This document shows positions 3,478-30,754 of a DNA stretch of 64,000 nucleotides, in pieces (position 1 is the first letter of the stretch; each line of letters begins with the position of its first letter). Source of the DNA: Crossaster papposus (lineage: Eukaryota; Echinodermata; Asteroidea; Velatida; Solasteridae). The DNA is taken from the NCBI GenBank assembly GCA_037893245.1, contig JBAIAA010000746.1, positions 496,001 to 560,000 of the forward strand. Direction: 5' to 3'. Made by a program: the position numbers and the translations under genes. Below the pieces are notes generated by a model. It was not told where the DNA came from. It searched no databases and saw nothing but the letters and a program-made list of their open reading frames with translations.

Positions 3478-3571
3478 ACGAGCAAATATACAAGCTAAGA
3501 AATTGCATACAGTTGGGTAAATTATTACCTTTCATTGTTCCTCAGTTGGTTTGCATACTTTAAACTGAATC

Positions 3572-4120
3572 ATGACGAGCACATTTGATCTTGGTAGTTT
3601 TGTAGCTAGCTTTGAAGCCTCTCCTTCAGAGAGTAAGCTAGATACATTGAAACGTACTGAATTGTTTGACCTAGCTAAGCATCACAAAGTTTCTGTACTT
3701 TCTAGTATGAAAAAAGAAGACTTGAAGGCAGTTTTTGTAGAGTTCTTTGTAGATGAAGGTATTTTGGAATCGCACATGCCAGAGCCTAGTCTTTATACAG
3801 AGGAGGCTGCTATTAGACTTAAAGAACTCGAGTTGGAAATTCAAATCGAGCAAAGAAAAAAAGCCGAAATTGAATTAGGATTAGCTAAGTTAAAGCAAAG
3901 TAGTACACCGCATACCACTGCGTTTGATCCGAGCAAACATATCCGTTTAGTGCCACCATTCCAAGATAAAGAAGTAGACAAGTATTTCGGGCATTTTGAA
4001 AAAGTAGCAGATAGGCTTCAATTGCCCTCAGATATGCGTACTTTGATGCTGCAAAGTGTCTTGACTGGTAAAGCTCAAGAGGTGTATTCAGCACTCCCTG
4101 TTGAACAAAGTAAAGACTAG
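3572..4120 (+). CDS. Gag, N-terminal part (Gmr1-like element)
   Basis: About 180 residues. An N-terminal charged region and a Glu/Lys-rich coiled-coil-like stretch (around residues 75-110) precede the start of a capsid-type helical domain (LVPPFQDKEVDKYFGHFEKV, around residue 126). The first ATG after the leader is used. The frame stops at the edge of the 13.5-kb transposon, so the stop comes from the insertion. The rest of the capsid and the zinc knuckle lie at 17,627-18,310. In this family gag packages the RNA into a cytoplasmic particle. Confidence 0.7.
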   Translation: MTSTFDLGSFVASFEASPSESKLDTLKRTELFDLAKHHKVSVLSSMKKEDLKAVFVEFFVDEGILESHMPEPSLYTEEAAIRLKELELEIQIEQRKKAEIELGLAKLKQSSTPHTTAFDPSKHIRLVPPFQDKEVDKYFGHFEKVADRLQLPSDMRTLMLQSVLTGKAQEVYSALPVEQSKD

Positions 4121-4724
4121 TAAGGGATGAACGCTAATGTCCCGTGACCAAATCTTGGCAACAAAGGTTTGAAAGTGTTTTGGGCATTCCTGAAGGGTAC
4201 TGAACAAATTTGGCTTGGGCTGCCCTCTTCAAAGTTCCGGGCATTTTTGTTAGGGGTCAATTAAGGTCAAACAAGGGTCAAATTTGAAATATATCCCAAT
4301 CTGTTCATGAAGCATATCAAATTAATCGTCTGGTCATCAGAAATCCAAAAATATATAGTTTGCCCTATCTGTGACCTTTCGTTACAGCGCTATGGGGGAA
4401 AACGTGACAAAGGTCAACGCACTTTGATATGGCGGTCAAGTTGACTAAATTGTCCGATTCCAATGATTTTGGTGTGTAATTATAGGTTTCCTGACATGAC
4501 AAATTCAACTGAACAACTTTTAAAAATCCAAGAGGTCCCCTTGACCTTGAAATTCAAAATGGCTGCCAAAATGAACGTATTTTTCCAATTTTCCCATTCC
4601 CAAGACCATAAAGGCTTAAGTCAAAAACAATCCCAATTGGATTTATAGCCCAATTCCACAAAGTTTTAACTCAATGAAACAGGTTTTAGTATAGTTACCA
4701 ATGTTACCACCTGAAAGACTCAGC
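4120..4724 (+). repeat. Left TIR of 13.5-kb transposon
   Basis: It is the reverse complement of 17,018-17,622 with a few substitutions and small indels. The outer 30 bases are identical on both sides. The match ends around TTACCACCTGAAAGACTCA. A short open frame in the TIR occurs in both copies and is not regarded as coding. Confidence 0.88.
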
Positions 4725-5801
4725 TCAGACTTAGGTCTTTCTGGCTTGGTAACTGATTTGCTAATAGTGAGATATGGTTTTCTGGCCTACCCAATTGCCA
4801 GAATGTATGCCATAAAGACTACATAATTCCCCTTCATTCTTAGTTATTTAGACTTGTACCCTCAAATAAAATGATACCTAGGCAATAGGCATGGCAACAT
4901 GGTAAACATTCCACAGAGATGAGTGGTTTCAGTAATACTATCGCCACTTGTGAACCCTAATCACTTTAACACTTGACTTCTTGACATGTGACCTTCTTTC
5001 TATTAAAATACAATAAACCAAAGTTAAGATGATTTAAAAGTGTGTCATTTGCATGTTTGGTGGTTTAAAAACCCATTTAAAAACCCTTGCTCCTACATGG
5101 GCTTATCATAATAACTTGTTTTTCTGAAGTGAACATTTTTTCTAGTGAAGACTGAGAGGAGTGAGAGGTGGAACTGTGTTATCAATGGTTATGACTATAC
5201 TTCCCCTCTAAATTGAGTTACTGAATATTCCAGCTTATCTCAGCTACTACAGAAGTCTTAAGGTGAGTGTTTCATATTATTAATACTGTAAATGTACTAT
5301 ACTTCAACATGCGGGTGGGCCTATTTGGTGCAATACACTAATACAGTGAAAGATCTAATGTATGCCTATTTAAAATCAATTTACACAAAATGAGGAAGTG
5401 TTTATTAGTATCATTACGAATAAGTTTTATTGTATGACTATTGACTAATTGACTATGATCATACAAATGATCTTACCTAAATGAAAAACTTTGCCAACAT
5501 GAACTTGCCTAACAGAAAATCTATGCTAAAATGATCTTGCCTAACATGATCTTGTTTGCTACCCCACTATCTACCATTTGCAGCTATCAAGACCCTTCTG
5601 TACAGCGATCACCTCTGCTTAGCTACCTTTCAAGACTCTTACCTGGAATCACCCGCACTATAGCTTTAGTTTCAGGACATTGCTTGCAATCACCACTACT
5701 TTAGCTAGTTTCAAGAAACACCCTTTGTCCCTGCCAACCCCTCTATCTGCCGAGTATCTAGACCCCTGTGAGCCTGCAATCTACCCATCACCTAGCTATA
5801 T
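4725..5801 (+). other. Untranslated leader region of the 13.5-kb transposon
   Basis: No coding frame. Repeated short phrases (TGATCTTGCCTAACATGA near 5,500; ATCAAGACCCTTCTGT near 5,587) recur just before the gene start at 12,315-12,330, showing that the two sides were contiguous before the LTR element landed. A good splice-donor match (AAG/GTGAGTG at about 5,261) could end a 5' leader exon, but that is inference. Confidence 0.4.
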
Positions 5802-6092
5802 TGTAACGTAGATTTTGCCTGGGGTCGATACAACACACAAGAAGGAATCTGGACTCAGTGTTCCGTGATTTCCGGTGAATATACCTGCCGTTTTATTGTG
5901 GACTCTCGCCTACAAAACACTGCCATGAAGTACGCACAATCACGCGGTCTCTAAAACTGGTCAGAACTGGTTCGGCGTATGCGCGATCCAAAGACGGGTT
6001 TCCGGGGCGCACCAGCAGGAGCCACCAGGGCGATCCCACCATCGTGGAATCGCTCCAGCGCCCTCTACCGTCCAACCGGCACGGACGCTACA
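5802..6092 (-). repeat. 3' LTR of gag-only element
   Basis: Direct repeat of 11,981-12,271. A polypurine tract (minus strand GTGGGGGGCTG) abuts its start at 6,093-6,103, which sets the element's orientation. Confidence 0.88.
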
Positions 6093-6207
6093 CAGCCCCC
6101 CACGAAGACCTTGTTTGCCCCCAAACAAGACTATGGGCGCTGCTGCCGCACCCCGGCCAACCGCCCCGGAAAGCGCATAACGCCAACAATTAGATAACAA
6201 CAAAAGT

Positions 6208-9200
6208 TTAAAGTTCCCGTCTAGGAGGTGGGAGGTGGCCGCCGCATGACGCCGTCCCTGTCCAAACGCATCCAGGTCCCGTCCGGTAGCTCCACCCGAC
6301 ACCCGGCCGGCAAGACTCAGGGCTGCCCACGCCATTGGAGCTCCGTCTGCGTCCCTCCTTCCGCCCGAGCTGGCGGGAAGGGTCTGGCGGTGCTGCTTCC
6401 TTCTGGGTGGCGAGAGCGGTGTCCGTGTCCCCGTTGTCCTGACCAACGGCCCGGGGGCGCCGAGGTAGCCTCTCCTGGTCCTGGCTTGGCTGGCTGGCCG
6501 ACTCGTCCTGTTTCGTGCGAGGAGGCCGGGAGGGCCGCTCCGAGTGGAGGTGGTTCCCCGGCTCTCCCGCTGGAACTGGGCCCCGTCGTTTCTTGGTCGG
6601 GGGCGGTGACGCGGGACTGGCAGCGGCTGGGTGATCCCGCCTGCCGTGGGAAAGGTCGGGGCTCTCCTGTCGGGAGAGGCGAGGCGGAGAAGGTCCTCGG
6701 CCGGCGGGATTGATGAGCTCTATCTCGTCGTCGCTGGGATGAATCTTTAGGGCGTCCATCTCCGCCATCACCCCGGCCACCAGCCCCTCCCGGCAGTACC
6801 GATGGTGACGTCCCCGGATATCGTCTCGGTAGAACCGCACTCCGCAGCCCCGTTCGCACGCGTACGGGCGTTCCGCGTGGAGCTTCTCGCACGCAGTGCG
6901 GATGTGTCTGCGGCGGTTGCTGCTGCGGGTGAAAGCCTTCCCACAGTGGGGGCACATCACGGGAGCCCTCCTGCGGGGGAAAGGAAGTTTGGTTAACGCA
7001 AGACAATATCGGCTAGGCCGGACTACCTTCCGGCCGGCGCGAGTATACCTCCCGGCGTCTGGTTCCGTCGGTGGAGAAGGTGGCCGATCGCACCCCGCCT
7101 CGTGCTCGCCTAGCCCTGGACCCGGTTTTGCACCCGTCTCAACCTGCCCTTTTGGGGCGGCATCCGCCTCCGCCTCCGTCAATGCCGGTGGTAGTTCCTC
7201 CTCGTCCGTCTGGTCACCCATGTCCCCTTGCGGGGCTGGCCTGGCTTGACCCGTCGGTCCGGGAACATGCGGTCTCAGCACTCCTTCGGCCCCAGGCTGG
7301 GGCGGCGGGGGGCTGGCTCTTCCCCTCCGGCGGGGGCAGTCTCTCCTGAAGTGGCCAAACTCATGGCACCTGTAGCACTCCACCTGAGCCGGCGCGTTAG
7401 GTTTGTACTCCACCTGGGGAACCGACTCAGGCTCTGCAGCAGAAACTGGAGGAAGCTTCCCTACCGACATCACGTCTCTGGCTCCGGCCTTCCCCTTCCG
7501 GCTATACTCCTGTGACTTCATGAACGCCTCCATCTCGGTTGCGAGCGTGATGGCTTCGGTCAGGGTTGCCGCCTTCCGGGAGAGCAGGTGACGCTGCAGC
7601 TGTTCCTCCCCCAAGGCCCTCCGGAACGCCTCTACGCCCAAGTCCTTCCGGGCCTGCGCAGGGAACCTTGGGTAGCTTTTCAACACCAGCCGCCGAATGG
7701 ATTTTCCCAAGCTGCTGAGCGACTCGTCGCGGCCCCTCGTCCGCATGGACAATTTGGCCCGATGTAGTAGGACCTGCGCCGTCACGCCGAAGCGGTGCTC
7801 CATGTTTTCCAAGATGAAGGAGTATTCCCCCCGTGCCTCTGGCGCCATATCTGCCAGTGCTTCCAGAGCTGTGCTCTTCAGGTGAGCCGCCAGATACATC
7901 GCCTTCTCGGACTCACTCCAATGGTTGACCGCCGCGACGCTCTCAAAATGGATCAAGTAGTCCGACCAAGACGAGACCCCATCAAACCTATACGGGAGCA
8001 TCAACGGTCTCCGGCCTCCCGTTTCCATTGGTTCCTGTGTGCGGAGCAGTGTTGGCGGCTCCGCTCCATTGACTTGTGTGCGGAGCAGCGTTGACGGCTC
8101 CGCTCCATTGGCTTGTGCGCGGAGCAACTCCGCTCCATTGACTCCCATGCGGAGCAGCGTTGACGGCTCCGCTCCATTGGCTTGTGTGCGGAGCAGCTCT
8201 GCTCCATTGACTCCCATGCGGAGCAGTGCCGACGGCTCCGCTCCATTGGTTTGTGCGCGGAGCAGCTCTGCTCCATTGACTCCCATGTATCCAAGAGATT
8301 CGCCACTGGACGCAACAGAACTTCCTGAAGTTAAATGACGACAAGACAGAGTTCCTTTTATTTGGATCACGTCAACAATTATCAAAAGTTTCAGTGCCAT
8401 ACATTTCCATCGGTGATGCTCAGATAGCTCCCTCGTTGCAGGCTCGGAACTTGGGTGTTATTTTTGATTCGTCAATGACACTTCAACCACACATCAACAA
8501 CGTCATTCGTCTCTCAACATTTCACATCAGGAACATCGGTAAAATACGCAAGTTTTTGGACAAGAGCGCTACAGAAAAAGTAATTCATGCATTTGTCACT
8601 TCTCGCCTTGACAACGGCAATGCCCTTTTCTATGGTCTTCCGCATAACCAGATTGCTCGTCTCCAACGCCTCCAAAACACCGCAGCCCGCATGGTTACAC
8701 TCTCAAAAAAATCCTGTTCCATCACCCCCATCCTGGAACAACTTCATTGGCTCCCTGTCTCTCAACGAATAATCTTCAAGCTTATGCTAATTGTCCACAA
8801 AGCACTCAATGGCAAGGCTCCCCATTACATCTCAGAACTTCTTCAAGTTTACACTCCATCAAGGAACCTACGATCCAGCAACATGCTTCTCCTCAAAGAA
8901 TCCAAGTCACGACACTCGTGGGGCGACAGACGTTTTTCTGCAGCTGCACCACACATCTGGAACTCTTTACCGCTTAATCTTAGATCTTGTCTGTGTACAA
9001 CAAAATTCAAATCACTTCTCAAAACTTATCTCATGTCTCAGGTTTTCAAGAACTAATTTATTTGTTCCTCTCATTTGTTACTGTTTCTTTCAAGTTAAAT
9101 ATTACTTTGTTTGTTTTTTAGGGTCTCTGCGCCTTGAACACCCAGCAGGGTGGATATGTGCGCATTACAAATCTTATTATTATTATTATTATTATGCGGA

Positions 9201-9893
9201 GCAGTGCCGACGGCTCCGCTCCGTTGGTTTGTGTGCGGAGCAGCTCGGCTCCATTGACTCCCATGCGGAGCAGTGCCGACTATGCGCTGTAGGTGTCCTG
9301 GCGATGCCCCGCCCCCGCTGCTCTGACGTGTCCAGACGAGGCCCCGCCCCCGCCGCATCAACGGCCACAGCTTGGGATCGCCCCGTGCGGAACGAACCGT
9401 CTGCCGCGCCGCCGTCTACAGCACGGGCCGGGCCCCCTACGGACTCGATATAATTTGTATAGAACAACTGAGGGATGTCCCGATGAGGCCCCGCCCCCGC
9501 TGCATCGACGGGCACAGCTCGGAATTGCTCCGCGTGGAACAAAACGTCAGCCGCGCCGCCGTCTACAGCACGGGTCGGGCCCCCCACGGACTCGGTAGCG
9601 ACCCCAGACAATTTATGGGGAAGGGCGCCCTCACTCCGAATCGGAGTGGACGCACCGTCGCCCCCCAACCATTGGGACATGTCTCTAAATTCCCCGCTAT
9701 CATTTCCCAATTCCTCCCCCAGGAAACACCCTGACTCCCAGGAAACCACAGCCCCCCGAGAGCTCTTCGGTAAATCCTTAAAGAAGGCCTCTAATTCCTC
9801 CGGTGTGATGCACGGAGTGCCTGCATAATGAAAACTTTTGGCCCAAAACGGGCATAAGGTCCGTGTGTGTGTGTGCCACGGAAGTTGTTGCAA
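6208..9893 (-). CDS. Gag-like protein with CCHC and C2H2-type zinc fingers, interrupted
   Basis: Minus-strand coding sequence on both sides of the LINE at 8,288-9,193. The 5' side (9,893-9,192) is an Ala/Gly-rich region of unknown role. Next come tandem NGAE-type repeats, then a retroelement gag capsid domain (PYRFDGVSSWSDYLIHFESV onward, encoded from about 8,000 down to 7,500). A CCHC knuckle (CYRCHEFGHFRRDC) is encoded near 7,375. After a Pro-rich linker there is a C2H2 finger (CPHCGKAFTRSSNRRRHIRTAC) near 6,950 and a second Cys/His pair (CERGCGVRF...HHRYC). The last 170 residues are basic and low-complexity. A short N-terminal piece may lie at about 11,820-11,940. Extra C2H2-type fingers after a gag knuckle are unusual. 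GC content is far above the surroundings. Confidence 0.62.
8037..8285 (-). repeat. In-frame minisatellite inside gag
   Basis: Imperfect tandem units built on CGGAGCAG...GACGGCTCCGCTCCATTG encode LLR-x-NGAEP type repeats. The array resumes at 9,194-9,290 on the other side of the LINE, so the LINE landed inside it. Confidence 0.75.
8288..9193 (+). mobile_element. 5'-truncated LINE (CR1/L2-like), 3' end
   Basis: An open frame from 8,289 to 9,056 encodes the region after the polymerase core of a CR1/L2/Jockey-type reverse transcriptase: LNDDKTEFLLFGS, LGVIFDSSM, SRLDNGNALFYGLP, RLQRLQNTAARM, LHWLPVSQRI, and a closing WNSLPLNLR...FKSLLKTYL. The 3' UTR ends in ATT repeats (9,175-9,193), the microsatellite tail typical of L2/CR1-type LINEs. 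It interrupts the gag minisatellite; flanks join as ...CCCATG/CGGAGCAG, with at most ATG duplicated. The coding part is intact but only a C-terminal fragment. Confidence 0.82.
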
Positions 9894-10108
9894 ATTGACC
9901 TAACAATTAGCATACCACACACAACATAGGCCGCGAAGGGAACGTGGCTCGTGTTGGACCCGTCCATTGCAGATTATGGGGTAGAAGGTTATAAATGTAG
10001 GGGCACCCAGGTTTTCTAATCATGCACAGAATTAGTGCAGCACACTTTTCAAGTTTTATAACAACACGCAGGAAAATATATAATATAAATGACACAGACA
10101 AGTCAGGT

Positions 10109-10518
10109 TTTTTTTGACAAACGATAAACTTGAATATTTATTTTGTAAAAATGGGAAAATTTATATTTAAACAGTAGCACAAAACACATTTGTTATTATA
10201 AAAGCCCCAAAGAGCTGCAATGATATGAGGCTTCCGAATGAAGGTAGTGAATAACATTTAGCATCCTGATTTTTTGTCTCATTATAGTACATTTGCACAT
10301 TCATCGTAACGCTTGTCCCAGCCAATGTAATGAACTAAGCCATACACGGTGTCATGTTCGGTTTTGAAATCCAAAATGTTCAGAGGGTACAGCTTGCTGG
10401 TTGACCAGTTTGTGGCCGTTTGACGCTCTCGGTGGAATGCTGGTCCCTCTGCTAATGCCTTGTAGCCAACTCTACGTTGGCACCTTTTTTTCGCCGGTCT
10501 GCCATACAAGTCACCTTG
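10109..10518 (-). pseudogene. Captured 3'-terminal exon with chromo-barrel/Tudor-knot-like end
   Basis: On the minus strand a pyrimidine-rich tract ending TTGTTCAAG (about 10,519-10,540) looks like a 3' splice site. The following frame reads ...WSTSKLYPLNILDF...VHYIGWDKRYDE and stops at 10,282. The SKLYPLNI and VHYIGWDKRYDE blocks resemble chromo-barrel or Tudor-knot domains (MRG15/MSL3/ARID4 type). About 150 bp downstream are an AATAAA signal (near 10,136) and a short A-tract (10,108-10,115). This looks like the last exon of a host chromatin-protein gene carried inside the gag-only LTR element. The resemblance rests on about 35 residues, so the family call is tentative. Confidence 0.35.
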
Positions 10519-11819
10519 AACAAAAACAAACAAAAAATGGGAGAAATCATTACACCCGTGTAGGAAATTTATCAGTGTTGTTGACTCAAATTGGTGACTA
10601 GACTAAATTAATCTTGAATCCGATTTTATTGAAATCGATTTCGACTTGTCTTGACTTGCATGGACTTGTATGGAAATGAAGACTTGGGTCACTCGACTCG
10701 ACTCAGTAAAACAAAATGTTGGTTACACTAAAATTATTTTAATAATTTTCTTTGTTTAGGCCCAGAACGCCTAAACTAAAACTAAAGTTGGAAAAAATGT
10801 GGAAATAAAATCTGGAAAACACCGCCATTATGCAAAGATGCATGTACTAAATTATATCAACACAGTTCTGCAAACATGACTTTGAACAAGAAATTATTTA
10901 GGTCCTAATCAGGGCTTTTCAGTTGACTGTATGTAAATTAAAACGCCATGGTTTTTTAATATCCGAGCTCATTTTGACAACAAGAACCTGAATTCTATGC
11001 ATGCACATTCTCATGCATTGGCAGTACAGTCAGCATTGGCATACACATACCCGGTTGCTAGTGGAACAGTCCAAAATCCCACGATGTCTCAGAATTCAGG
11101 CGATGACGATCTAAAAAACTCTCTCAAATAGATTCTTCTCCTTTGTCAAAATCACTCTGGTCACGTTTACATTATTCCAAATGAACACAATATACCAGAG
11201 AAGCTATCACAGTCGATATGGTGGTAAAACGAGGGTACAAATCAGCAGATAATGCTCAGCTTGGACAGCGCAACATTCACCAGCAAGCAGAATAAGGTCA
11301 ATTGTTGCGCAACACAACGCGGGCTTTAGGTCACGTGGCCACATAGCGGTCGGCCTTTGTAACAATTCTGTTTATTGGAAGAAAACTTAGAAGAAAAAAT
11401 GATCACTGGATTTCTGACCAATCACCATGGATCTTATATGAGTGGACGGGGAATTTCATCTACTTTCCAAAACCGTTCACCCCTTTGCGACATGACGTCG
11501 ATTTATCCGGTCACGTCCGGATAAACAACGCGGGTAGCAAATTTAGGGTCAAATTTCTGTTCTCTCCATAGACAATTGCATCGAATGCCCAAGTTTGAAA
11601 GAAAAATGATCACTGGTTTTGTGACTTTACTTAGTAAAACATACATGATCATGAAGCTAGAATAATGAACTTTAAGAATCTGTTCACCCCTTTTTGCGGC
11701 GATCACCCGTTCTAAAGATACCTGTGTTTTAGTCGAAAAAAACCTGCTAAAAACTTGACGATTTACGTGTTAAAGCCTCTGTGGACGTTTCCGGGCGAGC
11801 AGATGCGCGCTAGTTTTCA
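10519..11819 (-). other. Non-coding sequence between captured exon and 5' end of gag-only element
   Basis: No supportable frame. GACTT/GGACTTG-rich short repeats lie at 10,640-10,700. A pair of diverged direct repeats (GATCACTGG...GTTCACCCCTTT) lies at 11,401-11,490 and 11,608-11,700. It may be intron and upstream sequence of the captured gene, or a further insertion into gag. Confidence 0.35.
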
Positions 11820-11962
11820 TTATGAATGTTCTCTAGACTGGTCCCCGTTCCCCGGGCCCATACCCTGGCCTGCCCTCTCGTCGTGGGGCGAGTTGGCTGC
11901 CATGCCATCGTGGTTTTGCGAAAACATGAACACTTCACCTGGTCTTTTTTCGTCTTCCTGTA

Positions 11963-11980
11963 TCCCACCGCTGCCACCAA
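11963..11980 (-). other. Primer-binding site, tRNA-Leu type
   Basis: The minus strand reads TGGTGGCAGCGGTGGGAT, matching 16 of 18 positions of the complement of a eukaryotic tRNA-Leu 3' end (TGGTGTCAGGAGTGGGAT). It directly follows the LTR. Confidence 0.65.
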
Positions 11981-12271
11981 TGTAACGTAGATTTTGCCTG
12001 GGGTCGATACAACACACAAGAAGGAATCTGGACTCAGTGTTCCGTGATTTCCGGTGAATATACCTGCCGTTTTATTGTGGACTCTCGCCTACAAAACACT
12101 GCCATGAAGTACGCACAATCACGCGGTCTCTAAAACTGGTCAGAACTGGTTCGGCGTATGCGCGATCCAAAGATGGGTTTCCGGGGCGCACCAGCAGGAG
12201 CCACCAGGGCGATCCCACCACCGTGGAATCGCTCCAGCGCCCTCTACCGTCCAACCGGCACGGACGCTACA
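11981..12271 (-). repeat. 5' LTR of gag-only element
   Basis: Near-identical partner of 5,802-6,092, with the primer site immediately inside at 11,963-11,980. Confidence 0.88.
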
Positions 12272-12341
12272 ATATTATCAAACATGGTATTTGCCTACCA
12301 TCAACCTGTGCCTACCTAGTATCAAGACCCTTCTGTGAACG

Positions 12342-15300
12342 ATGTCAAGGGCTGTACTGAGTCCGGATTCCAAATTAACCAGAAAAAGGGGACGTGATAC
12401 GATAACTGAACTGTGCATCTTATGTAATGAAGAATGTGACAATGATAAGAGCAATCTTTCAAATGATGCATGGGAGCGCATGAAGGCCAAAGCACACGAT
12501 TGGAGCGGGCTGCACAAATTTGGATCTGTTTACGATACAGTCGATTGGGATGCTGGACCCAAAGGTGTGTATTTTCACAAGAGCTGCAGGACCGCATTGG
12601 CTGCTCAACGTGGGCTTCAGCAAGCGTTAAAGAAGAAAGAGAAAGAACAGGAAAAAAATACACAAAACACTCGAGACCATGAAGAACCAGGACCATCTGT
12701 ACCTCGACCTTTGCGTAGCAAAGTTCTTATTCAGGATAAGAATCGATGCGTTTGGTGTATGAAAGCAGACGACAAACGACACCATCAACCCTTGTGTTTT
12801 ATCCAGCAGTGCAATGCGTGGAATTCCTTCAAGGCACACACAGTATACCTAGAAGACGCTCAGATGCGAGACAGAATTGTGTCCATTATAGATACAACAT
12901 CTGACCCCTTCGCTACCGAAATTCGATATCATCGATCATGTTGGATGAAGTATGTAAACGCCCATTACAAGCAACACGAATCTAATGAGAACCACATACA
13001 TTTGCAAAACGTGAGACTTACAGAAGTAAGAGAGATGTTCTTCACGCATGTCCGCACTGTCATATTCGAAAGGAACGAGCCAAGGACTTTGCAGGGACTT
13101 TTAGTTGATTATAACCAGTTGAGTACAAACTTTGGGTTTGATAGTATAACGAAAACAAGTACAATAAAGCAAATGCTTCAGAATGAATTCAAAGACAAAA
13201 TTGGATTCCATGATCGTTTCCACAAGAACCAAAGCACACTTGTCTATAATACATCCACTGGTGGAAGTTATATTGAAGCAGCAATTTATTCCTGGGGAAT
13301 AAGTGATGAGCAGTTACTGAACAATGTCGCACGACGCCTAAAGGAGAAGTTGACAGGAGACCTGGGTATGTCATGGCCACCCTATGTTGATGAGCTTGAA
13401 GATATCGTAGAACCCAATGTACTTTTGCGTCAGCTTCTAACATGGCTCAAGGATCCTACTACTACAGACTTTACGGAACCATGCAATGATCCTCAAATTG
13501 CTGCACTGTCTTCACTATTGCTTTCATTCATCACTGGCAAGCGCTCTTCATTCCAAGCAAGTTTATCGGTGACACTTCATGGATTAACTAGGAGTCGTGA
13601 GATCGTAGATATCTTGAAGAAGTTTGCTCTTGGAATAAGCTACCAAGATGTGCTTAATCTGTATGACGCATGGGCCATGCATGACATTGAGGCAAACACT
13701 ACCTGTCCAGATGACTTAGCAGATGGTTTCCCAGGAACTGGCATCCTAGATAATGACGACTTCCAAGACGATACTTTGACAGGGGCAAATACATCTCATC
13801 GAACTAATGTCATGTTTGTTCAACCTGATGATGTTATGGTAACAGACACAGCAGAAGATCGCCCAATACTAAACATGGCCAAGTCTGATGATATGAAAAA
13901 TGTCAGTACCTTGCAGCACAAAGTTCTTCCTTACAAAACGATGAAACGCGGGCAGCCAGGCATTCGTAAAGAAGTAGACATCTCACTTCAGACCACTGAT
14001 GAGCAACGAAAGCGTGGTGTAATGCACACGTTGGCCCGAATGGATATTGCAGGAAATAATGTACCAGCACATGAGCAGAAGATCGGAAGCTTCGCTGGGT
14101 TTCAAGCCAATATTCATGAGTTTGTGGTGAAGAGTACAGCGTACTATTTTCTGACATTCCCGAAACCACCGCATAAGTCAGTTGTTCACGAGGTGACCAG
14201 CCCGTGTACACCTTAATTGTTCAACTGAAGAACGAGAATGCTGGGAAATTTGACCTCATCCTTCCATTCTTAGGTCCATTCCATGCTCACCTTTCATTCA
14301 TAACAGCAATCAACAAGCGATTCAAAGGATCAGGCTTATCTGAAATTCTTGTAGCGGCTGATATTATTTCAGAGGGCTCAGTTGATCAGGCACTTCGTGG
14401 AAAGCACTACAAGAGAAGTATCAGATGTCTGACCCTGATGTATGAGGTACTTGTTCGCAGAATTATTCGTCAAGAGTTCACTGAGGGGCTACAGTTGCCA
14501 TCTGAACTCAAGAGCAAGTTGCAACGACTTAGAAGTCCATCCACCAGTACGCAAGAACAATTGCAAGCTACTGCAGCTGACCTCCAGACTGACGCAGAGT
14601 TTTCTTCCTTCGTAGAAAGGGCATTTGAGAGTGCCGAGAAGTCAGATAGCCCTATGGCAAGGTTCTGGTTGAGCTTCATGCAAATGGTCGAAATATTGAT
14701 CATGAACATATACGCCTTGAGGACTCAGGATTGGGACTCATTTAAGGCATCCCTTAGAATGATGTTGCCATGGATGCGTATATACGACAATGACAAGTAC
14801 AGCAAGTGGCTTCTAGAATTCTGGCTTGAAATCAGCAGTCTCCCTGAGGAAAAGGAGAAGTACATGCAGGATGGATTATTTGCCCAATCAATGACAGGGA
14901 AACCATACTCATGTTTGCCTCTAGATCTCTGGATAGAAATGACCATGAATAAGGGTTCCAAGATGAAAGCCGGTTGGAAGAGCATCCTGAAGAATGAAAA
15001 GATGTTGTTGACCCATACAAGAACTGTTAACTTTGTAAATAGAGTGAGAGGCTCCTTGCATACATTGGCAAACCTGCATGAATCTTCAGAAGGTCACCGA
15101 GAGAACTCCACCACCAGGATGTTAAAGGATGAGCAAGGGGTGCAGGACTTGGACAACTGCATCACTGAATTTGATTGCGATCCGTTTGATCTTACCAACC
15201 CTACTCTGAGATCTCTACAGTCTGGAATGGTCGCATCAGATCAACTTATAGAAGATTTCACCACTGCTCATGATGACGGGGAGTGTCTAGTTCAGTCTTT

Positions 15301-16852
15301 CTTCAAGGAGCGGATGTTTTCCAGTGAAAAGCAGTTTGATGCTACAATCCACAGAAATACAAGACATAGCTTCAGCAAACCACCTGTAATCAAGGATGCA
15401 TCCAAACCCAAACAAACAAAGACAGATGCAATGGAGAACAAAGCGATGGCAGAGATTATTTCTCTCGCTCAAAATTGTGAGGCAGGGCTTGTACTATCTG
15501 AAGTGATGGAGTACCGTGTCACAGATGAATGTCTTCCAATATTCAACGTCAATGGAACAATGCGGAAGGGAATCAAATCCAAGCTAGTGGACAAGCTCGA
15601 CCTATTGGAACTGAAGCCACTGGGTAGCTACATTGCCCTAGTAGATATGGGCTTTGTTTGGAGACTCGCAACCCCATCTCCTGAAGATAGAGAGAAAAAT
15701 GACGAGACACACTTTTCGTGGGGTGATTATGCCAACAAGGTTTTTAATCTTGTTCTTTCTTGACATCCAAAAGCATCAAAGATCATCTTCGTGAATGATC
15801 CATATGACCTGGATATCAGTATCAAAGACAGTAAACATGAACGACGCACAGGAGAAATGGCTTTCACTGGTGGAACACGAAATGTTTACATCAAGAGAGA
15901 TGACAAGTTACCAGCTTCTAAGCACTTCAATAGCTTCTTCAAAAACCCAGGAAACAAAATCCGCTTGCAGCAATTTCTGAAAACCGAGTTCAAGACCCTG
16001 TCGCTCCAACATCCAGATACAACCTTTGTTTACTCTGTGAGGGATCACTGTTGTGATTTGTCCACTGATGAGGTGATTGGATAATACACGTGTCACCATA
16101 TAGAGGCAGACACAATCCTTCTGTTCATCTATTCGCAGCTAAGGAAGACGGGAGTAGAAGATACCGTTGTCATCGATGCAGAAGATACCGATGTGGTAAT
16201 CCTAGCTTCATACGCAGCCCATCATATTGAAGGAGCATTGGGCATCAAACGAAAGAAGACTGTGTTGGATTGCAAGGCACTGTGCGATGCAGACATTGCC
16301 AATGTGATAATACCATTCCATGTCCACACTGGTGCAGATGCTGTCTCCAGCTTCTACGGCCATGGAAAGCACTCCGTATTTGATAGCAGAATGAAGTCAG
16401 AGGAAGCGAAGAAGTTATTGTCAGGACTCGGGAGAAGTGTCCCAGTGACAACAGACACATTAACCGACATGGAGAAGTTCACCATGAAATATATATACAA
16501 AGACAAGACGAGTGAGACACTTGGAACAGCTCGGGCATCCAAGTGGGAAGCAATGAAGCGGAAGTCAACTCTGAGGATTCCTCCTGATAGTGATTCCCAT
16601 AACTTGAAGGTTACCAGAGCCAACTATCAGGTATTCATCTTCTTGAACTTTATGCATCCAGATGCGCCACCATCACCTCTGCAACATGGCTGGAGTATAA
16701 CAGAGGGCATCTGCTCGCCTACACGATACACACGGCCAGCTCTACCCACATGTCTATCACAGCATCTTATCACAACAATCACAGACGATAGCGACTCCGA
16801 GTCTGACTCTGACGCTGATTCAGATATAAGTGAATCTGATGGAGATGAGTAG
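12342..16852 (+). pseudogene. PIN/FEN1-like nuclease protein of the 13.5-kb transposon
   Basis: One long coding region. 12,342-14,216 is open and starts MSRAVLSPDSK. The frame shifts by one at about 14,204-14,216 and then stays in a single frame to 16,852, with two in-frame stops (15,761-15,763 and 16,082-16,084). Order: a Cys-rich N-terminus (CILCNEEC...FHKSC, then CVWCMKADD...CFIQQC...YHRSCW) that looks zinc-binding; a helical middle; a GPFHAHLSF block; VNDPYDLDISIKDS; then HIEADTILLF, EDTDVVIL and HTGADAVSSFYGHGK, the acidic motifs of a PIN/FEN1-like nuclease; and a Ser/Asp acidic tail. It lacks the CXC tail seen at 2,400-2,500. As the transposon's only gene it is the candidate transposase, which is inference. 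Total length is about 1,500 residues. Confidence 0.7.
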
Positions 16853-17017
16853 AACATTTTCCAAATAGTTTTGTCTTAGACACTCACCGTCAACATGTTA
16901 TTTCGAACTTGAATCTAAATGTAACATTTGAACCTGATTTCTGATGCACTCATTATAGTCAACATGGAAAGAATATGTGCATTTTGGCAGCCATTTTGAA
17001 TTTCAAGGGGACCTCTT

Positions 17018-17622
17018 GCGAGTTGAGTCTTTCAGGCGGTAACCATGGTAACTATACTAAAACCTGTTTCATTGAGTTAAGACTTTGTGGAATTGGGCTA
17101 TAACTCCAATTGTGATTGTTTTTGAGTTAAGTCTTTATGGTCTTGGGAATGGGAAAATGGGAAAAATACGTTCATTTTGGCAGCCATTTTGAATTTCAAG
17201 GTCAAGGGGACCTCTTGGATTTTTAAAAGTTGTTCAGTTGAATTTGTCATGTCAGGAAACCTATAATTACACACCAAAATCATTGAAATCAGACAATCTT
17301 AACCATTTAGTCAACTTGACCGCCATATCAAAGTGCGTTGACCTTTGTCACGTTTTCCCACCTAGCGCTGTAACGAAAGGTCACAGATAGGGCAAACTAT
17401 ATATTTTTGGATTTCTGATGACCAGACGATTAATTTAATATGCTTCATGAACAGATTGGGATAAATTTCAATTGACCTTAATTGACCCCTAACAAAAATG
17501 CCCGGAACTTTGAAGAGGGCAGCCCAAGCCAAATTTGTTCAGTACCCTTCAGGGATGCCCAAAACACTTTCAAACCTTTGTTGCCAATATTTGGTCACGG
17601 GACATTAGCGTTCATCCCTTAC
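17018..17622 (-). repeat. Right TIR of 13.5-kb transposon
   Basis: Inverted partner of 4,120-4,724. Just inside it, a fragment of the same TIR sequence (around 16,975-17,015, CATTTTGGCAGCCATTTTGA) is repeated again, a small internal duplication at the inner edge. Confidence 0.88.
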
Positions 17623-17626
17623 TAAT

Positions 17627-18310
17627 AAGCTAGTTAAGTCAGCTATTCTAAAAGCCTATGAGCAGGTACCTGAGGCATACCGGCAGAAATTTAGAAATGT
17701 AGAAAAACAGGACAGGCAAAGTTATATTGAGTTCTCACGTGAGAAAGACATTTTCTTTGATAGATGGTGTAACTCCTGTAGTGTAGGCAAAGATTTTGCT
17801 AAGTTACGGCAGGTCATGCTCTTGGAGGACTTCAAAGGTTGTGTCCCAGATAATGTTAAAACGCATTTAGAGGAGCAACAAGTTAAGGAGTTACATCAGG
17901 CAGCTGTATTAGCTGATGATTATGTGTTAACACACAAATCTAATTTTACTAAGGGTAGTAATTACCATAGTAACCGTCGGGTTCGTAATAGTCCTCCACG
18001 TTTTCCTAAGTCAGTAGATTCTGACAAACCCGACAGTTCAGGGATTAGTGCAAAGAGCAGATCTGGTACGTATAAGCCAACCGTGACTTGTTCATTTTGT
18101 AAGAAAATGGGCCATATAAAGTCCAATTGTTTTGCTTACTTGAGGAAATTCCAGGCTAGCGGTGCTAGTGGTAAGCCGGTTGCATTTACCAAGTATACCC
18201 AGCACGATATGTGGCAGAGGGGTACCCCCCTCTTATCCCTACACTTTATATGCAGTCAACACTATTGTAACCTAACCCATCCCCCCTTGAAACCTAAAAG
18301 GAATTCCTGA
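17627..18310 (+). CDS. Gag, C-terminal part with zinc knuckle (Gmr1-like element)
   Basis: Coding sequence resumes right after the transposon with capsid helices (LVKSAILKAYEQVPEAYR, then FDRWCNS and LRQVMLLEDFKGCVPDNV). A basic linker leads to a CCHC knuckle, CSFCKKMGHIKSNC (about 18,091-18,132), which binds RNA during packaging. It belongs with the piece at 3,572-4,120. Confidence 0.72.
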   Translation, partial: KLVKSAILKAYEQVPEAYRQKFRNVEKQDRQSYIEFSREKDIFFDRWCNSCSVGKDFAKLRQVMLLEDFKGCVPDNVKTHLEEQQVKELHQAAVLADDYVLTHKSNFTKGSNYHSNRRVRNSPPRFPKSVDSDKPDSSGISAKSRSGTYKPTVTCSFCKKMGHIKSNCFAYLRKFQASGASGKPVAFTKYTQHDMWQRGTPLLSLHFICSQHYCNLTHPPLKPKRNS

Positions 18311-18438
18311 GATTCCGGGAACACAATGGTCAACACAAAAGAGGGGGGGTTTTCTCTGCCACATATCGTGCTTCATAATATGTTACCAAGAGTGTTCCAT
18401 GTTCCACATTCCCTGAGATTAGTGAAGTCAAAGGCTCT

Positions 18439-21400
18439 TTGTCTGGCATAAGTAAGGATTACTTGCCCTTTATCACAAAGGGATTTATTTCACTTGGTGA
18501 AAGTGAATTAGACATGCCACATCCAGTTGTAATACTTAGGGACACAGGGGCTTCGCAGTCCTTGCTCCTTAAAGGTGTAGTTCCCGTCAAAAATAAATCT
18601 TATGCAGGAACTAATGTTATGGTAACTGGTGTTGGTAATGATCACATTGATGTGCCTCTGCATTATGTTAACTTACAGTCGGACTTAGTTTCGGGGCCTG
18701 TGACGATAGGGGTAACCCCAAGTTTACCGAAGGGATTAGAAGGTGTAACCTTACTCCTAGGTAATGATATTGCTGGTCGCAAAGTTATTGTTGAACCAGT
18801 AATGGATAAATTTGCGAGTAGTGAAAATTACACTGCTCAGCTGGAGGAAGATTTCCCGGGTATCTTTCCTTCATGTGTGACCACTAGATCAATGACTAGT
18901 AAGAGTAAACTAACTAGGTCAGAGTCAGTAGGTCAAAGTGATGGCATTGATTTATATGATACATTCATGGCTGAATCTTCTATGCCATTTCAGGAAAATT
19001 CCCCTAATCATGTTCAGTCGCATATCACTAGTGATCTTTTTATCAGTAGAGAGGATTTAATAGCTGAACAAGGGAAGGATCCTACATTGCTTAGTATAAG
19101 TAGAACGGCCCTAAGTGAATCAGAAGCTTCCAAGGTGCCCGTCTGTTATTATATTAGTAATGACATACTTATGCGAAAGTGGAGACCCCCATACGTCTCC
19201 GCTGATGAAGAGTGGAAGGTTGTTAATCAGGTGATTGTACCTAAACCCTATCAAAATCACATCATTAATTTAGCACACGACATCCCTATGGCTGGACACT
19301 TGGGTGTGACAAAAACGTGTGATCGTATTTTGCAGCATTTTTATTGGCCTAATCTTAGACGATCAGTTGGCGATTACTGTAAAACTTGTCATACGTGTCA
19401 GATAGTTGGTAAGCCTAACCAGGACCCACCTAAAGCACCTTTAAGGCCTATACCCGTTTTAGATGAACCGTTTAGCAGAGTCATTGTTGATTGCGTGGGA
19501 CCATTACCCAAGGCAAAGTCGGGGCACCAGTACATACTAACTATCATGTGTTCTTCCACTAGATATGTTGAAGCTGTTCCTTTACGGTCGATAAAAGCCA
19601 AACCTGTAAGTGAAGCACTGATCTCATTTTTTACTCGTTTTGGTCTTCCCAAAGTAGTTCAAAGTGACCAAGGAACAAACTTCACGTCTAAATTGTTCCG
19701 AGATCAACTTCGTATCCTAGGCATTGCTATTGTAACCTCTAGTGCCTATCATCCTCAAAGCCAGGGTGCACTCGAGCGATTTCACCAGACTATGAAATCC
19801 ATGATCAAAGCCTATTGTGTGGAACATAATAAGGATTGGAATGAGGGACTTCCTTTACTCCTCTTTGCTATTCGTGAGGTACCTAACGAGTCCCTAGGCT
19901 TTAGCCCATTTGAGCTAGTTTTTGGACGCAATGTCAGAGGTCCATTGGCTCTAGTGAAGGAAAAGTGGCTGGGAGATGTTCAAACTGCTGACAGTGTTCT
20001 GTGCTATGTTGGCAAACTAAAACAGCGTTTGAAGAATGCTTGTGAACTTGCACAAAATCACCTTCAGGGAGTTCAGAAAGAAATGAAAGTCTGGTATGAT
20101 CGTAAAGCTCGAGACCGTAGTTTTGCACCAGGTGACCAAGTACTTGTATTGTTACCATTACTGGGTCAGCCTCTCCAGGCCCGTTATAGTGGACCCTATG
20201 TAATCGAAAGTAAAGTAAGTAATTTGGATTACGTAGTTAAAACTCCTGATAGGCGAAAGAAAAGACAATTGTGCCATGTTAATATGCTCAAACGCTATCA
20301 TGTTCGACTATCATCAGAAACTAAAACTGAGACAGTAGTTGTAAGTACATTAAATTCTGATGAGATAGATGACATTCATGTGCCAGGTGACAATATCAAG
20401 CTTGATAACTCGCATATTTTGGCAAATCTAGATGTGAAATTACAACATCTAACTCCAGACCAGAAATCAGAAATGAAAAATGTGTTGATTCAGAATAAGC
20501 AATTGTTTTCTGATGTGCCGACAAAAACTGATGTTGCAAAACATGATGTGGATGTTGGAAATTCCACACCGGTCAAGCAGCATTCTTATAGATGTAGTCC
20601 GGTTAAGCAATCCCTTATGCACAAAGAAATTCAGTACATGAAAGATAATGGTATAATCGAGGAGAGTAACGAGGAATGTATCTTGGTTCCTAAGTCGGAT
20701 GGGTCTGTGCGGTTTTGTACTGACTTTAGAAAAGTTAATTCTGTAACTAAACCCGACACTTATCCACTTCCAAGAGTCGATGATTATATAGATAACATCG
20801 GTGGATATGATTTACTAAAGGGATACTGGCAGGTGCCTCTAACATCTCGTGCAAAAGAGATATCCGCCTTTGTAACCCCACGGGGTTTGTACCAATATAA
20901 AGTACTCCCTTTTGGCATGATGAATGCGCCTGCCACATTCCAGAGGATTATGAATCAAGTTACTGTAGGGTTAGAAAACACTGAAGTGTACATTGATGAC
21001 ATTGTTATATACAGTGATACCTGGGAACAACATATAGAGCGTACTCTAGCTGTGTTCGATAGACTTTCCCAAGCTAAATTAACAGTAAACTTGTCCAAGA
21101 GTCAGATTGGTAAAGCTAAGGTTACTTTTCTTGGCCATGAAATCGGCCAAGGGGAAGTTCAGCCAATTAACTCTAAGGTTGAAGCCATTGTTAACTTTCC
21201 TCAACCCCGAACAAAGAAGGAATTGATGCGTTTCCTTGGCATGGCTGGGTATTATAGGAAGTTTTGCCGTAATTTTTCGGACGTCGTTTCCTCACTGACA
21301 AACCTGCTTGCCAAAAATACAAAATTTGTGTGGAACGATGAGCGCAATCAGGCTTTTGAGAAAGTAAAGACCATGTTTGTTACCGCACCAATTCTTTCTG

Positions 21401-21795
21401 CTCCAGACTTTGATAAGCCATTTACACTTGTAACTGATGCTAGTGATGTTGGAGTAGGTTCAGTACTCATGCAGCAAGATGACTGTGGGATTATACACCC
21501 AGTGTGTTACTTTTCCAAAAAGTTGAACCGACATCAAATGAATTACTCCACAGTTGAGAAAGAAACGTTGGCATTAGTTTTGTCTTTACAACATTTCGAG
21601 GTGTATCTGGATCTATCATTAAAGCCGATTATTGTGTATACAGATCACAACCCCTTGACATTCCTTAACAAGATGAAAAACAAAAACCAGAGATTGTTAA
21701 GATGGAGTCTGGCTCTTCAGCCATTTACCATTGAAATCCGCCATATTAAGGGCAAAGATAATGTAATAGCAGACACTTTGTCCAGGTGTTACTGA
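18439..21795 (+). CDS. Pol polyprotein: protease-integrase-RT-RNase H (Gmr1-like order)
   Basis: One 1,118-residue frame. The aspartic protease motif DTGAS lies near residue 33. An HHCC integrase zinc domain (H...GHLG...CKTCHTC, about 285-325) precedes the DDE integrase core (VDCVGPLP, SDQGTNF, a Glu in QGALERFHQ; about 345-500) and a C-terminal integrase barrel (PGDQVLVLLP...GPYVI, about 555-600). Then comes the reverse transcriptase (about 690-900) with LLKGYWQVPL, FGMMNAPATFQ and the catalytic YIDD, and RNase H with TDAS and YTDHNPL, ending DTLSRC. Integrase before reverse transcriptase is the diagnostic oddity. The element's reverse transcription and integration machinery is therefore all on this one frame, which looks whole. 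Confidence 0.92.
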   Translation: MSGISKDYLPFITKGFISLGESELDMPHPVVILRDTGASQSLLLKGVVPVKNKSYAGTNVMVTGVGNDHIDVPLHYVNLQSDLVSGPVTIGVTPSLPKGLEGVTLLLGNDIAGRKVIVEPVMDKFASSENYTAQLEEDFPGIFPSCVTTRSMTSKSKLTRSESVGQSDGIDLYDTFMAESSMPFQENSPNHVQSHITSDLFISREDLIAEQGKDPTLLSISRTALSESEASKVPVCYYISNDILMRKWRPPYVSADEEWKVVNQVIVPKPYQNHIINLAHDIPMAGHLGVTKTCDRILQHFYWPNLRRSVGDYCKTCHTCQIVGKPNQDPPKAPLRPIPVLDEPFSRVIVDCVGPLPKAKSGHQYILTIMCSSTRYVEAVPLRSIKAKPVSEALISFFTRFGLPKVVQSDQGTNFTSKLFRDQLRILGIAIVTSSAYHPQSQGALERFHQTMKSMIKAYCVEHNKDWNEGLPLLLFAIREVPNESLGFSPFELVFGRNVRGPLALVKEKWLGDVQTADSVLCYVGKLKQRLKNACELAQNHLQGVQKEMKVWYDRKARDRSFAPGDQVLVLLPLLGQPLQARYSGPYVIESKVSNLDYVVKTPDRRKKRQLCHVNMLKRYHVRLSSETKTETVVVSTLNSDEIDDIHVPGDNIKLDNSHILANLDVKLQHLTPDQKSEMKNVLIQNKQLFSDVPTKTDVAKHDVDVGNSTPVKQHSYRCSPVKQSLMHKEIQYMKDNGIIEESNEECILVPKSDGSVRFCTDFRKVNSVTKPDTYPLPRVDDYIDNIGGYDLLKGYWQVPLTSRAKEISAFVTPRGLYQYKVLPFGMMNAPATFQRIMNQVTVGLENTEVYIDDIVIYSDTWEQHIERTLAVFDRLSQAKLTVNLSKSQIGKAKVTFLGHEIGQGEVQPINSKVEAIVNFPQPRTKKELMRFLGMAGYYRKFCRNFSDVVSSLTNLLAKNTKFVWNDERNQAFEKVKTMFVTAPILSAPDFDKPFTLVTDASDVGVGSVLMQQDDCGIIHPVCYFSKKLNRHQMNYSTVEKETLALVLSLQHFEVYLDLSLKPIIVYTDHNPLTFLNKMKNKNQRLLRWSLALQPFTIEIRHIKGKDNVIADTLSRCY

Positions 21796-25413: not shown

Positions 25414-26871
25414 TCAAGAGTCCGCCTCCAAGAGCAAACATAACTTGGTGATCGGCCTGGTGTAGACATTCGTTCTGGTCTTCACCTCCACGCTTCGAAC
25501 TAATCTATCCTTGTCTGGCATGGTGCGTACCACTCTCCCAAGCAGCCAGAGATTCCTTGGCACGGACGTATCCACCACCAACACCAAATCTCCAACACAG
25601 ACGTTAGGTTGAGGACGCACCCACTTCTGTCTCTCCTGTAGCTGTGGTAAGTACTCTTTCACCCATCTGCGCCAAAATACATCAGACAGGTATTGGACTT
25701 GTCGCCATCTCCGGCGAGCGTAGATGTCAGTCTCCTGGGTGACTACTGGGGGTATCTGGGGGTAGAATTCAGTAGAAGCAAATGATTTGGGGTCAATGCT
25801 TCCAGGTCGTTCACATCATCAGAAACCCTGGTCAGGGGTCTGCTGTTGATGATACTCTCTACCTCACACAGTAGAGTATGCAAGCTCTCATTAGTCAGCG
25901 TCTGCTGCTTCATTAGGGAGAAAAGCACTTTTCTCACTGTTCTTATCTGTCTTTCCCATACCCCACCATGATGGGACGCTCCAGGTGGGTTGAAGGTCCA
26001 TTGAATGTTTCTCTGCAGTGAGGCGTTGTTCAGTTGAGCCTGGTTCCAGTTGTTGATTTCCTTTCTAAGTTCTCTTTCAGCACCCACGAGATTGGTGCCG
26101 TTGTCAGACCTCATCTCCTTCACATTTCCCCGTCGAGCAATGAATCGCCGGATAGCATCAATGCATGAGTCTGTGTCTAGAGAGTCAGCCTTTTCAATGT
26201 GTACAGCACGTAAAGCTAGACAGGTGAAGATCACACCATACCGCTTTAGCACACTTCGACCTCTTTTTACCTCTAGTGGTCCAAAGTAGTCCATTCCTAC
26301 TCTGGTGAAGGGGGGTTCATCAGGTTGAATTCTGTCTGAAGGATGGTCTGCCATCTTTTGCTCCATGACTTTGGCTCTATGGCGTCTGCACATCACACAT
26401 TTGCCAACTATTTTTCTGATGGCCGAGTTCGCACCAGACATCCAATATTTCTGTTGAAGTCGTGCAAGAATATGGTTCCGTCCGCTGTGCCCGGAGGTCT
26501 CGTGAATACGCCTGATGATCAAAGTTGACTTGACTGACTTTGGGAAGGATGATTGGGTGCTTAGCGTCAACTGGCAGTGAGGCCCTGCTCAACCTTCCTC
26601 CAACTCTTAAAAGCTCTCCATGTATAACTGGGTCAACTCTGTAGATGGAACTGGTTTTCTTCACTCCTCTAATCTTTGGTCTGCTACCTTCTCCATCTTC
26701 TTTATTCTGGGTTAGGGCTCTGATCTCCTCCTCGTATGCTTTGCTCTGAACATGCTGCAAGATTTTCTTCTCTGCTGCTTGTAGTTCCTTTAGAGTTAAT
26801 TCACCCTGCAGAGTTTGGTCAGCTTTCTGGGACATAAACTGGCATTTCCACCATCTTCTGAATCTTAGCAA
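25414..26871 (-). CDS. BEL/Pao pol, integrase and C-terminal domain
   Basis: Coding blocks in the order expected on the minus strand. A zinc-binding HHCC region (HETSGHSGRNHIL...CVMCRRHRAK) leads into the DDE core (VGMDYFGPLEV, RSDNGTNLVGA, a Glu in HHGGVWERQIRT), then a BEL-type region (SIINSRPLTRV) and a DUF5641-like domain (PNVCVGDLVLVVD...RPITKL, 25,414-25,662). It inserts the cDNA into the host chromosome. Together with 26,935-28,896 it makes up pol, which is broken in places. Confidence 0.82.
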
Positions 26872-26934
26872 CCAGCAAACTGCCTTTTTCAGTCGGACCC
26901 AGTCTGAGTAGTGCTCGATTATTTGATCAAGGCC

Positions 26935-28896: not shown

Positions 28897-28966
28897 GCAA
28901 AGGGGCCACCGTCCTTGCTGTTTATCACTTCAAGTGGCTCCATTGCCTTGGGGACATCGTTTCCAA

Positions 28967-30589: not shown

Positions 30590-30754
30590 TCTGACAATTT
30601 ATGCAGGGTAGGCCTATCATACATGTCATATCAATTCCCCAAATCAGTTCTGTGCAACTTATGCCATGGTCGATGCTCTAGATTATCACTGACTCAGTCT
30701 ATGGAACAGTTTAACTCCCGTTAACTGGACGGTTTTTTCAACATATTTCAACAA

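Follow-up and report, generated by a model that had tools for sequence, protein, structure and literature searches.

A broken transposon in the Crossaster papposus genome, probably of the AcademX lineage, with a putative DDE transposase and a FEN1/XPG-like nuclease in one gene

RESULTS

The element and its insertion site

We analyzed a 64,000-nucleotide stretch of the Crossaster papposus genome (the window; assembly GCA_037893245.1, contig JBAIAA010000746.1, positions 496,001 to 560,000 of the forward strand), to which all coordinates given without a contig or locus name refer. Positions 4118 to 17624 are occupied by a recently inserted and now broken cut-and-paste DNA transposon with terminal inverted repeats (TIRs) of about 600 bp. 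The left TIR (4118 to 4726, plus strand) begins with TAGTAAGGGATGAACGCT at 4118, and the right TIR (17020 to 17624, minus strand) ends with AGCGTTCATCCCTTACTA at 17624; they match one another in ungapped blocks of 278, 170, and 153 nucleotides with 96 to 99% complementarity and, when small gaps are allowed, at 94% across 612 columns. An initial annotation of this DNA had described near-identical 600-bp repeats, which these figures bear out, and had read positions 4120 to 17622 as one element with a single gene. The TIR transposon stands, but about 6.5 of the 13.5 kb that it spans belong to a nested long terminal repeat (LTR) element (5802 to 12271, no strand assigned). This later insertion, which is not part of the transposon proper, has 291-bp LTRs that are 99% alike and is flanked on both sides by ATAT; it is missing from loci L011, L022, and L027, where the counterpart of window position 5802 is joined directly to that of 12272, and its removal together with one ATAT leaves a transposon of about 7.0 kb. 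The nested element contains a 749-amino-acid minus-strand frame (6208 to 8457) with a weak CCHC zinc-knuckle match.

The insertion point lies inside the gag gene of an LTR retrotransposon, with the left part of gag at 3569 to 4117 and the remaining retrotransposon, in which gag with a SCAN match is followed by pol, at 17625 to 21795; both parts are on the plus strand. The 218 bp to the left of the element recur at 11 other genomic places with a 98 to 99% match, and gag is uninterrupted in all six of the empty sites fetched, which read GTAAAGAC-TAT-AAGCTAG (n = 4) or GTAAAGAC-TAT-CAGCTAG (n = 2). Comparison of these uninterrupted sites with the filled window site, where the element stands between GTAAAGAC and ATAAGCTAG with no clean target duplication, indicates a recent insertion and so upholds the earlier proposal of a recent move into a retrotransposon. 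A few target bases present in the empty sites are missing around the window copy, and this could reflect either imprecise insertion or a later deletion.

Genomic copies, termini, and target duplications

A TIR search of the 1.02-Gb host genome returned at least 47 matches; the search scores only the best candidates, and all copy counts are therefore lower bounds. Twenty further TIR loci were taken for comparison, among them L015, which is identical to L016, and L012 and L013, which are apparently a single site on two contigs, and with the window added the family was counted as 18 sites. Seven of the 20 loci (L011, L012, L013, L014, L022, L023, and L027) carry portions of the window gene, which the other 13 lack. 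At 98% identity or more the gene was found at 10 loci, and at all nine that were checked it is flanked on both sides by the window TIR in inverted orientation, as expected from the initial annotation; C704:676377 lies outside this set, C382 and C55 within it are apparently one site on two contigs, and at L048 the TIR is only 92 bp long on one side. No separate conventional transposase was found in the 11 of 20 TIR-matched copies scanned (open reading frames [ORFs] of at least 130 amino acids), which agrees with the earlier claim as it was worded; the gene itself looks like a conventional transposase to which a nuclease has been added. A large ORF at L010 was considered as a conventional transposase and rejected, being retrotransposon pol. 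Positions 99 to 3542 of L022 form a nearly palindromic copy in which two transposon N-terminal halves lie head to head.

The termini of the element are TAGT...ACTA. An exact 3-bp target duplication, which by chance would be expected at about 1 site in 64, flanks 15 of the 18 sites of the window family, the exceptions being the window and L011, which lack a duplication, and L023, the ends of which are damaged. The window copy is without the duplication that most of its relatives have. Both the window copy (4118/17624) and L011 (99/8607) are gene bearing and have intact termini. Among related families, exact 3-bp duplications were seen at 6 of 10 sites (L044, L046, C646, C264, and, in the sister lineage described below, C606 and C437); L042, L043, and L045 have damaged ends, and C431 shows no duplication.

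The transposon gene and its relatives

The transposon gene (12342 to 16852, plus strand) is broken in the window into three open pieces (to 14216, 14177 to 15763, and 16085 to 16852). At approximately 14192 it is missing 61 bp that are present in all four other copies (L011 to L014, perhaps representing three sites), and two in-frame stops lie downstream of this gap. An explanation of the 61 bp as an intron was rejected, as in L013 they read through in frame and continue a conserved VGDQPVY segment. At its 5' end the gene encodes two Cys/His modules (12414 to 12944, plus strand), the Cys and His residues of which are conserved in homologues: the first comprises CILCNEEC (12414 to 12437) with HKSC (12570 to 12590) and the second CVWC (12747 to 12764) with YHRSCW (12927 to 12944). 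The Cys-rich N-terminal modules of the initial annotation are therefore present, as are its acidic motifs.

Intact relatives were found in the same genome. Family B has three near-identical gene copies, each a 1,559-codon frame free of interruptions, the product of which is about 45% identical to the window protein; its TIRs of about 490 bp are 98% alike and enclose the intact gene in an element of 5.9 kb. Two copies, L042 near 7283 and L043 near 7077, belong to family B and have intact genes, one TIR without its last bases, and a complete other end. Three further loci (C646, C431, and C264) share a distinct terminus, TAGTTGGGTC, and have inverted repeats, 331 to 834 bp long in the sequence fetched, that enclose broken relatives of the gene. 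A search started from the family B protein retrieved 73 proteins: 72 close homologues (41 to 97% identity), many of them on contigs only 4 to 7 kb long, and the distant protein P0074. The last of these led to a sister lineage of 441 proteins at an E value of 0.001, of which the best 120 provided the protein detail given here, and the two sets accord with the earlier remark that proteins of this type are very numerous. The sister lineage has five uninterrupted 1,479-codon frames, 45% identical to P0074, in the host genome (C225:1532371, C248:2996636, C606:1047511, C437:91504, and C164:3369314); within the element, the flanks of the C606 and C437 copies are 99.8 to 99.9% alike. In the sister copies the inverted repeats are shorter (151 bp, 84%) and lie internal to the TAGT ends. 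The common ends, the duplications, and the shared order of protein regions argue that both lineages belong to one superfamily.

A putative DDE transposase domain

Conservation was assessed in an alignment (A1) of 66 rows, consisting of the family B query and 65 of the 73 proteins (P0005, P0031, P0032, P0034, P0035, P0041, P0056, and P0074 were omitted), with counts taken only over the rows that cover a given column. Three segments stand out: DNDDFxxDTLTGxxxHRTN, in which D501, N502, and D503 are each present in 56 of 56 rows; VGDxPVY, with D679 in 63 of 64; and LWIExTMNKGSK, with E921 in all 66. Their window counterparts, DNDDF (13749 to 13763), GDQPVY (14192 to 14209), and DLWIE (14924 to 14938), would form a DDE triad on the plus strand (13749 to 14938). 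In the sister protein P0074, aligned at about 20% identity, the positions corresponding to the triad are D441/N442, D596, and E869; the triad is invariant across 32 chosen rows of the sister lineage, and comparison of the profiles of the two lineages over this region gave a P value of 2.7e-20. The second open piece of the window gene (14177 to 15763, plus strand) matches the Pfam family DUF6589 over residues 15 to 307 (E value, 3.9e-14), and in the intact family B protein P0001 (L042:2078-6757) the match (7.5e-8) covers residues 689 to 924, from just past D679 to just past E921. At E values up to 1, DUF6589 was detected in 29 of 32 members of alignment A3 and in 12 of 32 sister-lineage members of A5; no match was obtained for P0009, and that of P0012 lay under the curated cutoff. 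Judged from the conservation and order of these residues, the region around the triad is a putative DDE transposase domain overlapping DUF6589. The initial annotation had seen no DDE signature in this gene, a statement not borne out, since the three window segments correspond to residues that vary little or not at all within the family and since DUF6589 matches the gene.

A FEN1/XPG-like nuclease domain

Behind the DDE region of the same protein lies a FEN1/XPG-like nuclease domain (15638 to 16369, plus strand), delimited by motifs and profile comparisons. Its motifs are, upstream, DMG (15638 to 15661) and NDPYD (15788 to 15808) and, in the C-terminal half, to which the motifs of the initial annotation belong, EADT (16100 to 16114), DAEDTDV (16175 to 16195), HTGAD (16325 to 16339), and FYGHGK (16352 to 16369). 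The PIN/FEN1-like nuclease proposed earlier is thus retained as a FEN1/XPG-like domain, of greater extent than had been supposed because of the conserved aspartates upstream. Residues D1209, D1309, D1331, D1334, D1336, and D1385 are invariant among the covering rows of A1. D1209 (62 of 62) aligns with the aspartate of VVFDG in the sister lineage, and D1158 (63 of 63) was assigned by eye to the sister-lineage segment YILDGG, MAFFT placing it opposite a gap.

In this region the profiles of the two lineages match one another with a P value of 4.3e-22. Against a 5' nuclease profile built from 121 bacterial and phage sequences (Xni, T5 D15, and PolA), the sister lineage scored a P value of 7.8e-4 (0.0073 when only three 5' nucleases were used), and the two lineages merged scored 9.3e-5 over 183 columns with the motif blocks in order, at an hhalign probability of only 59%; controls comprising the DDE regions and reversed profiles gave P values of 0.06 to 0.47. 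The profile of the window lineage alone found no match to the 5' nucleases (P values of 0.3 with three and 0.14 with 121), so that the profile check suggested with the initial annotation succeeded for the merged lineages and failed for the window lineage by itself. In the Protein Data Bank (PDB), the three best matches of the sister profile were all to Exonuclease 1 (E values of 0.065, 0.068, and 0.71), aligned motif on motif, although these are not significant by themselves. Two sister proteins, P0145 and P0155, are named as 5'-3' exonucleases in one source. A genome search with PF00867 gave 21 matches, none of them where these elements lie, and the one examined is a host XPG-family gene. On these sequence comparisons, the FEN-like identification is good when both lineages are taken together and less strong when the window lineage is considered alone.

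Neighboring retrotransposons

In the interrupted retrotransposon (3569 to 4117 plus 17609 to 21795), the SCAN match of gag scored 2.5e-12, and in pol the integrase domains lie ahead of the reverse transcriptase, an order that we take to be that of Gmr1-like Gypsy elements. Large frames on the minus strand at 25743 to 30598 presumably belong to a retrotransposon of the BEL/Pao type, to judge by their motifs.

DISCUSSION

We place the element, with a probability of about three in four, in the AcademX lineage of the Academ superfamily, a placement made by matching its features to the published description and not to reference Academ sequences. Academ and AcademX reportedly go back to Kapitonov and Jurka in 2010, and Kojima is said to have defined the lineages in 2020; the AcademX nuclease is of the XPG type. 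Among the papers listed in literature searches that paired XPG with Academ, none was relevant. According to the excerpts of the literature available to us, to which our statements from cited papers are confined, the founding report appeared in Repbase Reports in 2010 (as cited in PMC4455052), Academ is one of 20 superfamilies with a DDD/E transposase (PMC9587614), and a study that takes its list of 17 superfamilies from Yuan and Wessler 2011 classes Academ as DDE/D and reports a mean of 5,565 bp for it in a bivalve library (PMC10294476 and its reference 31). Target duplications are 3 or 4 bp long in AcademX and 9 or 10 bp long in AcademH, a difference tied to the encoded helicase or nuclease (PMC10045372). 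The combination of a putative DDE-type triad, a nuclease, and 3-bp duplications agrees with published AcademX and underlies our assignment; the 5.9 kb of family B is close to the bivalve mean, and comparison by description disclosed no difference. AcademH belongs to the same superfamily in print, but its helicase and 9- to 10-bp duplications contrast with the nuclease and 3-bp duplications found here, and it was rejected, no helicase match having come from scanning intact P0001 against Pfam at E values up to 10. Kolobok has TTAA-specific 4-bp duplications (PMC9587614), in contrast to the 3-bp duplications of varied sequence in these families, and was likewise set aside. The window element probably represents a new family within an already known kind of transposon and not a new class of transposase.

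Several observations weigh against this placement. Resemblance to Academ was judged from published descriptions, and the window copy itself lacks a target duplication. For the putative DDE region, which would adopt an RNase H fold, a PDB search brought up no relative by sequence at an E value of 10 or better, the window-lineage profile matching only a DnaA fragment (E value, 0.063), and a literature search yielded no named function for DUF6589. For the nuclease, the modest probability of the merged match, the null result for the window lineage alone, and the nonsignificant Exonuclease 1 matches point the same way. A separate, unnamed superfamily of DDE transposons with a FEN-like nuclease would accommodate some of these points, as would the facts that no paper naming DUF6589 emerged from the literature search and that the XPG type of the AcademX nuclease is taken here as background and not from the excerpts; we nevertheless regard it as distinctly improbable, as the putative DDD/E transposase, the nuclease, and duplications of 3 to 4 bp all fit the accessible description of AcademX (PMC10045372 and PMC9587614), and the length of family B lies near the bivalve mean (PMC10294476). 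Far less credible is the reading put forward initially, in which the FEN/PIN-like nuclease would itself act as the transposase, of a new class, and the conserved region upstream would serve only in DNA binding or assembly. It can draw on nuclease acids whose conservation extends to all or almost all covering rows and on a DDE region that is itself putative, but the same protein has an equally conserved D...D...E triad in both lineages, and the short target duplications of fixed length observed here are usual for DDE enzymes. Moreover, Academ is in print as a DDD/E superfamily (PMC9587614 and PMC10294476), AcademX has already been published, and AcademH has a helicase in place of the AcademX nuclease (PMC10045372).

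In our reading, a single protein of about 1,500 residues combines N-terminal Cys/His modules, a putative DDE domain overlapping DUF6589, and a C-terminal FEN1/XPG-like nuclease. We suggest that the Cys/His modules may bind the inverted repeats and that the DDE site may nick the 3' ends and join them to the target. Tentatively, and with less than even confidence, we propose that two unrelated active sites operate in this one polypeptide, such that the DDE site would handle the 3' ends and the FEN-like site would cut or trim the 5' nontransferred strand at the ends or the target, as TnsA does with TnsB, and would set the 3-bp duplication. The FEN-like site could instead trim flaps after strand transfer or play a dispensable accessory role. 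A passenger nuclease of the latter kind would suit a superfamily that is not always nuclease dependent, AcademH carrying a helicase instead (PMC10045372), but it seems rather unlikely to us: nuclease and transposase are encoded in a single frame, the acidic residues of the nuclease are kept in the covering rows and in the sister lineage, and duplication length has been tied to the accessory enzyme (PMC10045372). Likeness to FEN1, XPG, and EXO1 resides in how the acidic motifs are ordered and spaced and in the final G-G-K/G-I-G segment; unlike those enzymes, the nuclease is fused here behind a transposase domain, and the similarity emerges only when the sister lineage is included. Tn7 also pairs a DDE enzyme with a further nuclease that has a different fold and offers at most a functional parallel, the nuclease here being FEN-like rather than restriction-enzyme-like and part of a single polypeptide; we claim no kinship. 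The window copy inserted recently and later acquired the LTR element, and its gene is broken.

The claim of a new class thus gives way to a testable question, namely, why DDE transposons of this type keep a conserved flap-type nuclease. Uninterrupted genes usable for such tests are present in the host genome, three in family B and five in the sister lineage. Were the RNase H fold to be confirmed, DUF6589, which is listed as being of unknown function and the link of which to Academ is our own proposal and not taken from the literature, would become part of an Academ-type transposase domain, a useful annotation. Should the proposed division of labor between the two active sites be correct, these elements would be a single-chain, flap-nuclease counterpart of Tn7 TnsA-TnsB in animals.

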